Shown here: in pieces, positions 3,182 to 8,646 of the stretch
How positions within the stretch are numbered: the first letter of the stretch is position 1
Layout of the letters: every line of letters starts with the position of its first letter
NCBI GenBank assembly: GCA_004292785.1
Contig: RDXG01000201.1
Location: 1 to 36,978, forward strand
Direction of reading: 5' to 3'
DNA: 36,978 nt
DNA from: Bacteroidota bacterium
Lineage (GTDB): Bacteria > Bacteroidota > Bacteroidia > Cytophagales > Thermoflexibacteraceae
Notes under the pieces: model-generated
Seen by the model: the letters and a program-made list of their open reading frames with translations, nothing else
The model's database searches: none
Told to the model about the DNA's origin: nothing
Made by a program: the position numbers and the translations under genes

Positions 3182-3208
3182 TAAACGTAAACCTAAAAAT
3201 TTGAAAAA

Positions 3209-3222
3209 GACGATTGGTAACG
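3209..3222. repeat. Degenerate inverted copy of the arm of the hairpin at 4341-4380
   Basis: GACGATTGGTAACG here matches 13 of 14 bases of the reverse complement of 4344-4357 (GACGATTGGCAACG). The two copies are in inverted orientation on either side of the 3238-4200 gene. This could be a remnant of a small repeated palindromic element, or coincidence. Confidence 0.3.
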
Positions 3223-3237
3223 TAAAAAAACAAGAAA

Positions 3238-4200
3238 ATGCTTACAGATTATTGGGTAATTATTCAATTATTGGCACAAATTTGTTCCTTAATTTTGATT
3301 ACGATTGCCTTGCGATTTGGCATCATTTCCATTCGTTTTTGGAATGCAAAAAATGCCAATGAAGAACAACAAATTACGCTAGAACGCCAAGATTATTTAG
3401 TTTCTTCGATTGCGAAAATGGTTTTGAGTTTTCAATTTTTGGCTTTATTGATGTTTTTGGCAACCGTTAATTTGCATTTTCCAAACCTAATTCGTGGGGC
3501 AATGTGTGCCACAGGAACGCTATCTGCCAACGATTTTGGTTATCCTTTGCTGTTTTTGAAACTGTTTTTTGTGATTTTTGCTTGCATTTTTTCAGGCATA
3601 CAAAATTTGGATTCTAGCCAACCTGCCTACCCTTTGAGTCCGCAAAAATATGTTTGGCTTTTTCCTAGTTTTCTGTTTTTGCTTGCCGATCTTGTGCTGA
3701 TGTTTGCCTATTTTTCCAACATCAATCCTGACCTAATTACGACTTGTTGTAGCCTTAATTTTGTTACAGATTCAGAAAATCATTTCCTAGATTCTGGACA
3801 TTTTTTGAAGGAAATTTTGCTTTTATTTGCAATTTCATACATTTTTTTAATGATTTTTGCGCTTAAAAAAAAGCCAATTCTACAATTTTTTTCGGGATTA
3901 ATTTTTGTTTTTTCTGCGATTTATACGCTTAAATATTTTTTTGTCAAATACATTTATGGTCTTCCTTCGCATTTTTGTTTGTTCGATTTGTTTTTTGCGA
4001 ATAATTTTTATGTTGGATATTTGTTTTTTGGTTTGTACTATCTTTTGCTTAAAACATTGATTAACAATATTTTATATCATATTTTCAGAAAAAAATTAGC
4101 TTTAGATTTACCCAAAACAAACGTTTATGTATTAGTTTACGCCACGCTTATTTTTCTGATTCCTACTTTTTATTGGCTTTTTTGGAAAGGTGATTTATAG
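3238..4200 (+). CDS. Multi-pass membrane protein with paired cysteine motifs, unknown function
   Basis: The 320-residue protein has about eight hydrophobic segments spread over its length, starting at residues 5-30 and ending at about 296-316, so it is an inner-membrane protein. Between segments it carries cysteine-containing motifs: IRGAMCATGTLSANDFGYP (about residues 84-102), a Cys-Cys pair in TTCCSLNF (about 164-171) and LPSHFCLFDLFF (about 241-252). Motif patterns of this kind occur in membrane thiol-redox proteins and in uncharacterised membrane proteins of electron-transport neighbourhoods, but I cannot name the family. It sits alone on the plus strand, 99 bp after the carboxyltransferase gene, and ends before two hairpins. 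No function is assigned. Confidence 0.85.
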   Translation: MLTDYWVIIQLLAQICSLILITIALRFGIISIRFWNAKNANEEQQITLERQDYLVSSIAKMVLSFQFLALLMFLATVNLHFPNLIRGAMCATGTLSANDFGYPLLFLKLFFVIFACIFSGIQNLDSSQPAYPLSPQKYVWLFPSFLFLLADLVLMFAYFSNINPDLITTCCSLNFVTDSENHFLDSGHFLKEILLLFAISYIFLMIFALKKKPILQFFSGLIFVFSAIYTLKYFFVKYIYGLPSHFCLFDLFFANNFYVGYLFFGLYYLLLKTLINNILYHIFRKKLALDLPKTNVYVLVYATLIFLIPTFYWLFWKGDL

Positions 4201-4340: not shown

Positions 4341-4386
4341 AACCGTTGCCAATCGTCTTTTTCAGACGTTGGCAACGGTTATATTT
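4341..4386. terminator. Strong hairpin terminator between convergent genes
   Basis: AACCGTTGCCAATCGTC (4341-4357) pairs with GACGTTGGCAACGGTT (4365-4380), a 16-bp stem with one bulged T and a seven-base loop TTTTTCA. ATATTTTT follows on the plus strand. It lies between the plus-strand membrane protein gene and the end of the minus-strand CHAT gene and can serve both. Confidence 0.75.
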
Positions 4387-7300
4387 TTATTCCAAACCAA
4401 TCATCACAAAAGGCGACCAATATTTGGGTTTACTAAAACGTTCTTGTTTGCGTAATTCCTTTTTAGCATTACTAAATGCCAAACGTTTATCGCCTGTTTT
4501 GAACCATTCTTTGTAAAACAAAACCATCAATTCTTGGGTGGCGTTGTCATCCACTTTAAACAAGGTCATAATCACGTTTTTAGTACCTGCCACCAAAAAA
4601 GATCGCTGCAATCCTGCTACTCCGTCGCCTACTTTTAGGTCGCCTCGCCCTGTTTCGCAAGCGCTCAAAACCACCAACTCTGTGCCGTCCAAATTCATAT
4701 TTGCAACTTCAAAAGCAGTCAAAACGCCATAATCTTTGTTATAATTATAAACATTTCCGCCTGCCATCATATCTCCTGCATTTGCCAACAAAACCCCAGA
4801 ACGCAACAAAGGATTATTGACTACTTTTTGTCCGCCAAGTTCGTCTGCTTTGCTGTCTTCGATGTTTGGTTCAAAAAAACCGTGTGTAGAAATATGCAAA
4901 ATGCGCGGACTTTTTATTTTTAATATTAAATCTTCTTTGGCTGCGTCATTGGTCAAAAGCCTGATTTTGGCTTTTCCGTTCAATAAACTATCCAAGATAG
5001 AAACTTCTTTTTTTGTACCAGGAAGCTGTGTAATTGGTTTTTGTGTGATCAAATCCCATTCTTCTTTGGGCAAATCGTGGTAAAACAAAGGATTTCCAAT
5101 CAAAACGACTTCAGTTGTTTTGTTGCTTAGTTTGAGATTTTTGTTAAAAATTATACTATTTTCAACTAAATTTCCTGTACTTCCCACCAAAACAATATTT
5201 GCATCATCGATGACAAAACGTTTGTCTTTTTTTAACAAAGATTCAATATTGATCTGCGAATAAACTCCTGCAACCGAAAGATAAATCTTTGCATTTTTTG
5301 GCAAAAATTTATCAAAAGCCTCCCAATATTTTTTGTAAGATTCCATGTCGATTCGGTTATAAATCATCATATTTCTATAATATTTGAATGCTTTTTCTTC
5401 TAAATCTGCTCCACTTGTCAAACTGACAAGGATCGGATTCGATTTTTTGGGATCGAGCAATAAGGCTGCATAAATTACGGAATCGGTAAAATTGGTATCA
5501 AAATAACGGTAACGAATGATCTCAACCGCAAATTCATTTTCTTTGAGTAAACTTTTGATTTGTTGCCATTGTATTTGTTTTCCTTCGGATTCTTTGAAGG
5601 CATCAGATTGGCGGCTCAACTGTTTTTCCAAATCTTCAATTACATTTTGCAATTTTCGAGGATCAACTCCTTCTTGTTTTTGTTGTTCGGCATTCATACC
5701 AATTACTTTGATCAGATATTCTTTTTGTTTTTGCCATTTTTCGTAATTTCTGATCAAAGAATCATTGCCCGAACTCAAAATAGACTGTCTTACTTTGATT
5801 GATGAATTTAAAAGTAAAGATTTGGTTAGCAAAACATTATCATAAATTTCGCCCAAAAATTCTGCTTTATCTTTGCTCATTCTCATCATCAAATTGGTAT
5901 GAAATTCAAAATCCGATTTTATTTTGCTTGCATATTTATTTTTTTCCTGATCGCTAAGTGCGGGAAAGAAATCTCTGATGTAATTTTTATATTGTGCAAG
6001 TGCCAATTCTATGTTTTCCTGCGATTTTTTCAAATCGTTTTTGATGTAAAACATTTTTGCCAGACGGCTATAAACCTTGATGTTGTCTTCATGGGTTTTG
6101 CCTTTTAGTTTTCTGATCACTTCTTGTGTTTTTTTGTAGATTTGTTCCGCTTGATCAAAATTTCGTTTTTTTACTTCCAAATCTCCCAAAAACAATTCAA
6201 TTTCTGCACTTTGCGTATTTCGGTCTCCTAAAGTATTTTTCCAAAATTCGTTGGCTTGATTCAACAAATCTTTTGCTCTGTCTAGTTTGTTATCTGCCAA
6301 ATAAAAACGCCCTAACGAAAATAGTTCATCGGCATAAATTGGGTTATTTTTACCGAGATTTTTTTCAATAATTTGTTCAGCTTCGTTTAACAAACTTTCT
6401 GTGCCTGCCAAATCTTCGCCTTTGTTAATTTTAAATCTTGCTAATTGAGCCAAAGCGGTAGCGACTTGGATATGGTTTCTGCCAAAACCTTTTTCCAAAA
6501 TTTTGATAGCCTTATTCATTTCAGAAATTGCCTTGTCATAATCTCCAATACTGTTGTTTAATTCGGCATTTACAATGATTCCTTCTACGTTTCGCAAAGA
6601 AGTTTCGCCAAAAGTAGCCTGCGAAATTTCCAAAGATTTTTTCACATAGTCATCTGCTTTCGAATATTCGCCTAAGGCAATATTGAGTCGGGCAGCTTGG
6701 TTATATGTGCCAATTAAATATCGGCTTGTTTCTCCGTAGCGTTCTAAACGTTCTATGATGGCTTGATCTACAATTTTTTTGGCTTTGTCAAATTCGTCTG
6801 TTTTGATGTATAAATACGCCAATTCGTCAGGATTACTTGCCGAAGCATTTGAAACGCTGATTCTGTCTGCTTTTCTTAAAAAATCTCTTGATTGATCGTA
6901 AAGTCCTAAAATTGCATAAAAATTGGCTGCCGTTTGTAATGCTTTTGAGTTTTGTTCGCCAAAAACTTTTGCATCACTTTGTTTGTCAAAAATAGCTAAA
7001 GATTGATTAATCAAAGAATCGGCTTGATTATATCTGCCTTGCGACATTTCGAAACGAATAAATTTGTCTATTGCTGCTCCGTATTGCGGGCTATTTTTGC
7101 CAAATCGCCTTTCTGAAATATCCAAAATTCTTTTGATAATGTTGTTTGCCGAATCATAACGTTCCAAAGTTTCGTAATAATCGGTGATTTGGTACAAACC
7201 TTCCAAATAATGCGGATTATCAACCGTAATTCTTTTGCATAATTGCCCATAAAAAACGCTTTGGTAGATGGAATCACTTTTGGAAAATTTATTGGTGTAA

Positions 7301-8646
7301 GTGTCGTAATAATTGGCAGCTTGCATCAATTTATATAAATATTGCAAAGAATTATTGCCCAAAATTCGTTCCGCAGACGAAAGCATATCGTTCAAATACA
7401 TCAATGCTTTTTGATATTGATTTTCTTCTAGCGCAGAATTATAGGCTAATTGCAAAGTTCTGATTCGTTCTATATGGTTAAGCGGAACTTTTTTGCTATC
7501 CGAACCAATGGTTTTTAAGTGATCATCAACTGAACGCAAATAGGCTTGATCGTAAAGTTTACTTTTGCCTTCGGTTCTCAAATAAATAGCGTATTGTGTA
7601 CTATTTTTACCATAATATTTGCTTGCATTTTCGCGATATTCCCAACGTTGAATGCTCGATTTGGTCAAATAACGGTTTTCGATGTAATATTCCACCAAAG
7701 TATGCTCGATTTTGCTATAATCTTTGTGAACGGTGGTAAGCGTTTGTTCTGCCAAATACAAATTGTCTTCGATCATTTTTCGGTTGCGTTCCGCATTTAT
7801 TCCGCTATCCAAACACAACAAAGAACGAATGTGCTGGTTTCTGATGTGCGCCAATTCCCGATTGTTGATATTTTGCTTGATCCATTCGTCAGCTTTTTGA
7901 AGTATTTTTTCGGTATTTGCAAAATCACCTTTGATGCGCAAAGCGTCTGCGTGTAAGGTCAAAATTTGTGCATAATCTGTTTTTCTTCGTTTTTGTTCAA
8001 TGAAAGAAAGTTTCCTTTGTCGATAATCGTTGGTGATTTCTTCATAATATTCTTCTTCCTCTTTGATTCTTTTTTGATGAGCTTCCTCTACTCGATCAAT
8101 GATTTTCAAAAATTCGTCAATTTGTCCACGATCATAAAAAATTCGTGCCTGAACATATAAAATTTGAGCATTAATCGATGCATCTTGATAGCTTTTACTT
8201 AAATCGCCTTGTGCAGAAATGCTTAGTCCTAACATTTCTTTGGCAATATTAAAATATTTTTCTGCTTCGTTGGTAGCACCATAAATCAGGTACAAGTTCG
8301 CTGCATCCAAGTTCGCAAAAGCCATATAAGGCATTTGTTCGGTGGTTCTGGCAGTGGCTTTGTTTTTCAAACATTCTTTTAACATTTCTTCAAAGGCAAT
8401 GTAACGCCCTGCACCTTCATAATATTTAGCAAGATACATCTGCAATTTGACCACAACCAAACCTTTTGACTCTTTTTTCATTTTGGCGATGATCGGCACA
8501 CATTCCTGAACTGCCCTGTTATAATCACCGTCTTCATAATATCTTTCGCAAATGGCCAATTGGTTTTCGTAACCATATTGAGCAAAACTTTGATTGGTTA
8601 AAGCAAAAAATAACAGAGAGAAAAATAAAATTTTTAAGATTTTCAT
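4387..8646 (-). CDS. Secreted TPR-repeat CHAT-domain (caspase-like) protein
   Basis: This 1419-residue protein has an N-terminal Sec signal peptide (MKILKILFFSLLFFALTNQS, likely cut after FA at 22), so it is exported. Residues about 30-900 are helical repeats of the TPR/kinesin-light-chain type, with recurring A..Y...G.YD.A and 40-residue spacing. A helical linker follows, then a C-terminal CHAT domain (Pfam family of caspase/separase-like cysteine peptidases). The catalytic dyad is visible: His1255 in ILHISTHGFF and Cys1330 in VVLSACETGRG, followed by the GVAGLQRSFLVAGTKNVIMTL block. Both residues are intact, so it is probably an active protease. The TPR array presumably binds a partner or substrate. 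The gene is alone between the terminator at 4341 and a 93-bp gap to the S41-family gene upstream on the same strand. Target unknown. Confidence 0.92.
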   Translation of the reverse strand: MKILKILFFSLLFFALTNQSFAQYGYENQLAICERYYEDGDYNRAVQECVPIIAKMKKESKGLVVVKLQMYLAKYYEGAGRYIAFEEMLKECLKNKATARTTEQMPYMAFANLDAANLYLIYGATNEAEKYFNIAKEMLGLSISAQGDLSKSYQDASINAQILYVQARIFYDRGQIDEFLKIIDRVEEAHQKRIKEEEEYYEEITNDYRQRKLSFIEQKRRKTDYAQILTLHADALRIKGDFANTEKILQKADEWIKQNINNRELAHIRNQHIRSLLCLDSGINAERNRKMIEDNLYLAEQTLTTVHKDYSKIEHTLVEYYIENRYLTKSSIQRWEYRENASKYYGKNSTQYAIYLRTEGKSKLYDQAYLRSVDDHLKTIGSDSKKVPLNHIERIRTLQLAYNSALEENQYQKALMYLNDMLSSAERILGNNSLQYLYKLMQAANYYDTYTNKFSKSDSIYQSVFYGQLCKRITVDNPHYLEGLYQITDYYETLERYDSANNIIKRILDISERRFGKNSPQYGAAIDKFIRFEMSQGRYNQADSLINQSLAIFDKQSDAKVFGEQNSKALQTAANFYAILGLYDQSRDFLRKADRISVSNASASNPDELAYLYIKTDEFDKAKKIVDQAIIERLERYGETSRYLIGTYNQAARLNIALGEYSKADDYVKKSLEISQATFGETSLRNVEGIIVNAELNNSIGDYDKAISEMNKAIKILEKGFGRNHIQVATALAQLARFKINKGEDLAGTESLLNEAEQIIEKNLGKNNPIYADELFSLGRFYLADNKLDRAKDLLNQANEFWKNTLGDRNTQSAEIELFLGDLEVKKRNFDQAEQIYKKTQEVIRKLKGKTHEDNIKVYSRLAKMFYIKNDLKKSQENIELALAQYKNYIRDFFPALSDQEKNKYASKIKSDFEFHTNLMMRMSKDKAEFLGEIYDNVLLTKSLLLNSSIKVRQSILSSGNDSLIRNYEKWQKQKEYLIKVIGMNAEQQKQEGVDPRKLQNVIEDLEKQLSRQSDAFKESEGKQIQWQQIKSLLKENEFAVEIIRYRYFDTNFTDSVIYAALLLDPKKSNPILVSLTSGADLEEKAFKYYRNMMIYNRIDMESYKKYWEAFDKFLPKNAKIYLSVAGVYSQINIESLLKKDKRFVIDDANIVLVGSTGNLVENSIIFNKNLKLSNKTTEVVLIGNPLFYHDLPKEEWDLITQKPITQLPGTKKEVSILDSLLNGKAKIRLLTNDAAKEDLILKIKSPRILHISTHGFFEPNIEDSKADELGGQKVVNNPLLRSGVLLANAGDMMAGGNVYNYNKDYGVLTAFEVANMNLDGTELVVLSACETGRGDLKVGDGVAGLQRSFLVAGTKNVIMTLFKVDDNATQELMVLFYKEWFKTGDKRLAFSNAKKELRKQERFSKPKYWSPFVMIGLE

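Follow-up and report, generated by a model that had tools for sequence, protein, structure and literature searches.

The window analysed here, a stretch of 36,978 nucleotides from a Bacteroidota bacterium of the order Cytophagales and the family Thermoflexibacteraceae (assembly GCA_004292785.1, contig RDXG01000201.1, positions 1 to 36,978 of the forward strand), carries at 3238-4200 an open reading frame (ORF) that starts with ATG and codes for a membrane protein of 320 amino acids plus a stop codon. The protein has full-length relatives, many of them with the N-terminus MLTD.WVI... in common, and the ORF is a real gene of a real, unnamed membrane-protein family. Because five invariant thiol or imidazole ligands are predicted to lie on one outer face, with K108, K237 and D250 nearby in the chain, this family probably performs thiol redox or metal chemistry on the outer face of the inner membrane. 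The features on which the argument depends are the following.

3238-4200, forward strand: ORF of the predicted eight-helix membrane protein; full-length relatives, single copy in the source genome (89.86% complete)
3490-3507, forward strand: IRGAMC motif, residues 85-90 (C90), in the predicted loop between helices 2 and 3; G87, A88, M89 and C90 identical in 35 of 35 proteins
3559-3561, forward strand: codon of K108, a lysine invariant in 35 of 35 proteins, predicted within helix 3 (101-127), one to two turns off the motif face
3739-3762, forward strand: TTCCSLNF motif, residues 168-175 (C170 and C171), in the predicted gap between helices 4 and 5; both cysteines in 35 of 35 proteins
3961-3993, forward strand: LPSHFCLFDLF motif, residues 242-252 (H245, C247 and D250), in the predicted gap between helices 6 and 7; H245, C247, L248 and D250 in 35 of 35 proteins

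The initial annotation had described IRGAMC, a Cys-Cys pair in TTCCSLNF, and LPSHFCLFDLF as following one another in an otherwise featureless eight-helix membrane protein, and the three motifs do stand in that order. For the alignment, 38 loci were reduced to 35 distinct proteins by removing two duplicates (L051 and L053) and one locus read in two frames (L075); pairwise identity among the 35 runs from 24% to 96%, with a median of 38%. C90, C170, C171, H245, C247 and D250 are identical in all of them; so are W35, Q45, E49, N78, G87, A88, M89, G93, N98, G101, K108, K137, P164, Y240, L248, G260, P309 and Y312, while K237 is conserved in 33. Apart from G87, A88 and M89, all the invariant positions of this second group speak against the description as featureless. 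The window protein has six cysteines, at positions 16, 90, 116, 170, 171 and 247, and four of the six are invariant, compared with 24 of 320 residues overall (hypergeometric P = 0.0003). Conservation of the cysteines in homologues, which the initial annotation had proposed to examine, is found for these four together with H245, and not for C16 (Cys in 21 of 35) or for column 116 (fewer than six cysteines). Six of the 35 proteins have four cysteines in all, which must be C90, C170, C171 and C247, given that these four are invariant. The relatives were collected with a profile of nine rows, all bearing the motifs, at a threshold of 0.001; as the weakest intact member scored 1.9e-66 in the order-wide profile search, far from that threshold, the invariance of the motifs is not merely an effect of the cut-off. 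Strong selection acts on these cysteines as a set. Two departures were seen among the relatives: the gene of G541 (L075) is broken into two frames, the pieces of which keep GAMC, TCCS and HLC, and the L021 member (6120-7226) has an insert of ~30-40 residues between helices 5 and 6.

An AlphaFold2 model built on a nine-sequence alignment (mean predicted local distance difference test score, pLDDT, 76.1; predicted template modelling score, pTM, 0.71) contains eight long helices, in agreement with the initial annotation: 5-34, 43-84, 101-127, 136-160, 187-209, 213-239, 257-283 and 294-315. As C90, C170-C171 and H245-C247 fall in helix gaps 2/3, 4/5 and 6/7, respectively, all three motifs would lie on the same side of the membrane. 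Lysine and arginine are more abundant opposite the motifs (10.1 residues per protein on the side of loops 1, 3, 5 and 7 vs. 3.9 on the motif side, a bias present in 34 of 35 proteins), which by the positive-inside rule argues for a periplasmic position of the motifs; both protein ends and the three motif loops are thus most likely outside, on the periplasmic face of the inner membrane. The invariant K137 is predicted to sit at the opposite membrane end from the motif face. The motif loops are the part of the model with the lowest confidence (86-89, 172-186, 242-245 and 247-255 are under pLDDT 50), and a separate model of residues 158-320 is poorer (pLDDT 63.3, pTM 0.52); the helix count and the shared motif face are nevertheless supported by the prediction. 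With Foldseek, the whole model, with its low-confidence motif loops, had no match better than E 1.1, and that of residues 158-320 none better than E 1.7. The matches listed by VIA-align are for the most part common four-helix bundles, aligned to residues 1-165, with designed proteins scoring best; no DsbB, VKOR or metal transporter is among the structure matches listed, a result that excludes nothing. The two four-helix halves gave no signal of an internal duplication.

The initial annotation had also suggested a redox or metal/heme site at the membrane face. The invariant cysteines and histidine and the placement of the motif loops on one side agree with such a site, whereas its heme version is weakened. 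In that version, the family would be a heme-binding membrane protein with H245 plus a cysteine or M89 as axial ligands; an invariant His, an invariant Met and invariant Cys residues on one face are compatible with this, and the lysines could meet the propionates. However, H245 is the only invariant histidine in the 35 proteins, and the next one, H80, is His in 28 of them and replaced in seven (Tyr in five), for which reason a b-type cytochrome with two histidine ligands was set aside; the window protein lacks the CxxC motif; and CcmF, though present in the structure matches, has many other four-helix bundles beside it there, designed and unrelated proteins included. We therefore regard heme binding as very improbable.

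None of the libraries searched contains the family, which is unnamed. When the window protein and sets of nine and 31 members were run, every Pfam or NCBIfam hit was limited to a single one of the 31 members and none came near its curated level; profile A1 found no match among the sequences of solved structures, and no description of the family was found in the literature searched. That a clade should have an unassigned membrane protein of its own is, by itself, nothing extraordinary. DsbB (PF02600) and VKOR (PF07884) were both rejected as the identity of the family, with no match over 31 members (for DsbB, at E 0.5) and no CxxC. They resemble the window family, by analogy, in having membrane helices, redox-type cysteines facing the periplasm and possibly quinone and thioredoxin partners; they have, however, as PMC4555120 describes, four helices and carry loop cysteines in addition to those of the active site, whereas the window family has eight helices and a vicinal Cys pair and matches neither in sequence or fold.

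The mercury transporters offer a second comparison. A Cys pair plus a histidine in a membrane protein is common to MerT, MerE and the window family, and by analogy with them the four cysteines, H245 and M89 could form a thiolate site at the periplasmic mouth for a soft metal such as copper, from which the ion would be passed across the membrane or to a partner. The vicinal CC, HxC and MC, all on one predicted face, would be soft-metal ligands; in PMC5715351, the Cys pair of MerE and MerT is reported to be needed for Hg(II) transport, with histidines contributing in MerE; and a sub-threshold NCBIfam MerTP match of the window protein (E 0.032) spans the CC pair. This match is nevertheless far below its cut-off (13.8 vs. 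180 bits) and occurs in one of 31 members, none of which has a MerT Pfam match; identity with MerT or MerTP was rejected on these grounds. MerE has two helices vs. eight in the window family, and no MerA scored over the cut-off in any of the 13 genomes sampled from the source's taxonomic family (weaker matches occur in all of them and in all 14 control genomes as well). Membership of a mer operon was likewise dismissed, the neighbours in the window being an acyl-CoA carboxyl transferase and a TPR-CHAT protein, and no metal gene was recognised among the neighbours read, few of which were run through Pfam. Conserved lysines near the site would moreover be unusual for a cation path; a positive charge beside thiols (K108 and K237) should suit a quinone or an anion better. 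Metal binding or transport is the strongest of the alternatives considered, though on balance somewhat unlikely.

Relatives were sought in genome contigs in an initial scan, and then in whole-genome samples of the taxonomic family (n = 13), the order (n = 390), the class (n = 295) and the phylum (n = 395). The contig scan gave eight relatives, all from Cytophagales metagenome assemblies (Bernardetiaceae and Microscillaceae included), with best segments 39-45% identical. The gene is present in nine of the 13 genomes of the source's own taxonomic family and in 36 of the 390 genomes of the order, across four families. Profile A2 matched the source genome alone in the class sample; profile A1 matched, in the phylum sample, the source genome and, weakly, one genome of another class (G200), and that class (197 genomes, profile A2) gave G200 alone. 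No relative was found on plasmids by tblastn with the window protein, or among the 11 pattern matches obtained with profile A2 on viral contigs. Within the phylum samples, the gene therefore appears confined to part of a single order. Outside the phylum, Desulfobacterota and Campylobacterota may hold more distant relatives, with RGAMC and HxCPFC-like motifs. In the family tree, 10 of 32 inner branches are well supported and 15 are drawn open; with the bootstrap not settled, it neither shows nor rules out one origin per taxonomic family.

The G200 match covers helices 1-2 (1.7e-4 with A1, 6e-6 with A2) and belongs to a short family with four transmembrane helices (4-TM) and a GCCGSPML motif, the gene of which lies beside a metal-sensitive repressor in G200 (L010). 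This family (L010 1291-1779 on the reverse strand, L081-L085, L087 and L088) has an invariant CC, within GCCGSPML in most members, and a weak MerT match (E 0.0026) was seen in one of them; the family is possibly an undescribed metal transporter. Its likeness to the window family lies in a CC pair and in the weak match to helices 1-2. The CC pairs are, however, not aligned in a profile-profile comparison of the two families by hhalign (E 0.0063, 80 columns, probability 6%), and the other seven 4-TM members do not retain the E-R pair of the G200 match, although most keep EYLIG; kinship was set aside given the low hhalign probability and the lack of the E-R pair, although a remote link may exist.

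In the window, the gene starts 99 bases 3′ of the acyl-CoA carboxyl transferase gene, which has the same orientation; a gap of 186 bases separates it from the convergent TPR-CHAT gene (4387-8646, reverse strand), the product of which has 1419 residues and, by eye, a signal-like N-terminus. A 21-base element flanks the gene on both sides in inverted copies (3202-3222 and 4344-4364, 95% complementary); the genome holds 12 copies of its 19-base core with no more than one mismatch, vs. none of the reversed control. As the downstream copy falls within a strong hairpin, the element looks like a dispersed palindromic intergenic repeat.

4341-4380, no strand assigned: strong hairpin between the family gene and the convergent TPR-CHAT gene, perhaps a two-way terminator; z -6.05, none of 200 shuffles as low; dispersed-repeat copy inside

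Elsewhere in the window, two paralogous genes at 35-487 and 1052-1498 (150 and 148 amino acids; no Pfam match at E 0.001) flank another gene; their products are 81% identical over 143 residues and nearly identical in the C-terminal half.

When neighbours were compared among the loci, the clusters common to at least three of them belonged to close kin only. In four genomes of one genus (L023-L026), a MauE/DoxX-type gene and then a transporter permease precede the family gene, and a thioredoxin-fold gene and then one of TraB type follow it, as assigned by Pfam on L023; the thioredoxin-fold neighbour has WCGPC in L006, L007 and L008, the records of the other three genomes of this genus. MauE/DoxX membrane proteins are linked to thiol chemistry, and here the gene of one lies two upstream of the family gene; the 31 window-family members, however, have no match to them, the adjacency is limited to that genus, and this neighbour may be part of a cluster widespread among Bacteroidota in any case. 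In L003 (7402-7935), L052 and L055, the gene directly upstream is of NuoJ type (NADH-quinone oxidoreductase chain 6; Pfam on L003).

Between thiol and metal chemistry, we lean towards a membrane thiol-disulfide relay, a tentative choice that we hold at rather less than an even chance, for three reasons: the lysines, the single context of thioredoxin type, and the scarcity of visible disulfide enzymes in the taxonomic family. DsbB has no match in any of the 13 genomes, the source included, and VKOR has one in two, neither of them the source; six-frame searches of the source genome gave neither enzyme. In this family, seven of the nine carriers of the gene, the source among them, show neither enzyme. 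The same observation bears on an alternative in which the four cysteines form structural disulfides that brace the outer loops of a transporter or scaffold with a thiol-unrelated substrate. Invariant cysteines on one outer face would look alike in that case; however, these carriers show neither DsbB nor VKOR to form the disulfides, and a conserved H-x-C and a vicinal CC would be poor structural pairs, so that we consider a purely structural role unlikely.

Several results weigh against the thiol relay. No known oxidoreductase was matched in sequence or fold by the profile, Foldseek, Pfam or NCBIfam searches, and no CxxC exists at any of the cysteine positions of the window protein. The thioredoxin-fold neighbour is limited to one genus, i.e. 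four of 35 loci. Although VKOR had no match in 11 of the 13 family genomes, the source genome, which is one of them, is ~90% complete; and the four family genomes that lack the window gene show no VKOR or DsbB either. In the order, VKOR shares the genome with the window gene in 12 of 36 carriers and is present in 102 of 354 non-carriers (two draws of 390 genomes taken as the same set, as the genome labels support), which is neither exclusion nor association, and the gene was rejected as a replacement of VKOR.

If the thiol relay is nonetheless correct, two thiols, perhaps the vicinal pair C170-C171, would undergo disulfide exchange with a soluble thioredoxin-like protein of the periplasm, and C90 and C247, the remaining thiols, together with H245 would hand electrons to a membrane carrier, such as menaquinone near K108. 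The redox chemistry, the partner, the quinone, the cysteine pairing and the direction of electron flow are all inferred. A still bolder version, that the protein is a membrane thiol oxidase or reductase of a third type that arose independently, built on eight helices and with a vicinal-Cys active site, in a Cytophagales branch where the family examined has no visible DsbB and mostly no VKOR, strikes us as improbable.

Even without a function, the family is an unnamed one in which five precisely defined residues can be tested. A metal site, if confirmed, would make it a new clade-specific metal handler; a thiol relay, if confirmed, would extend the small group of known membrane enzymes that tie periplasmic disulfides to the respiratory chain by a new protein body.
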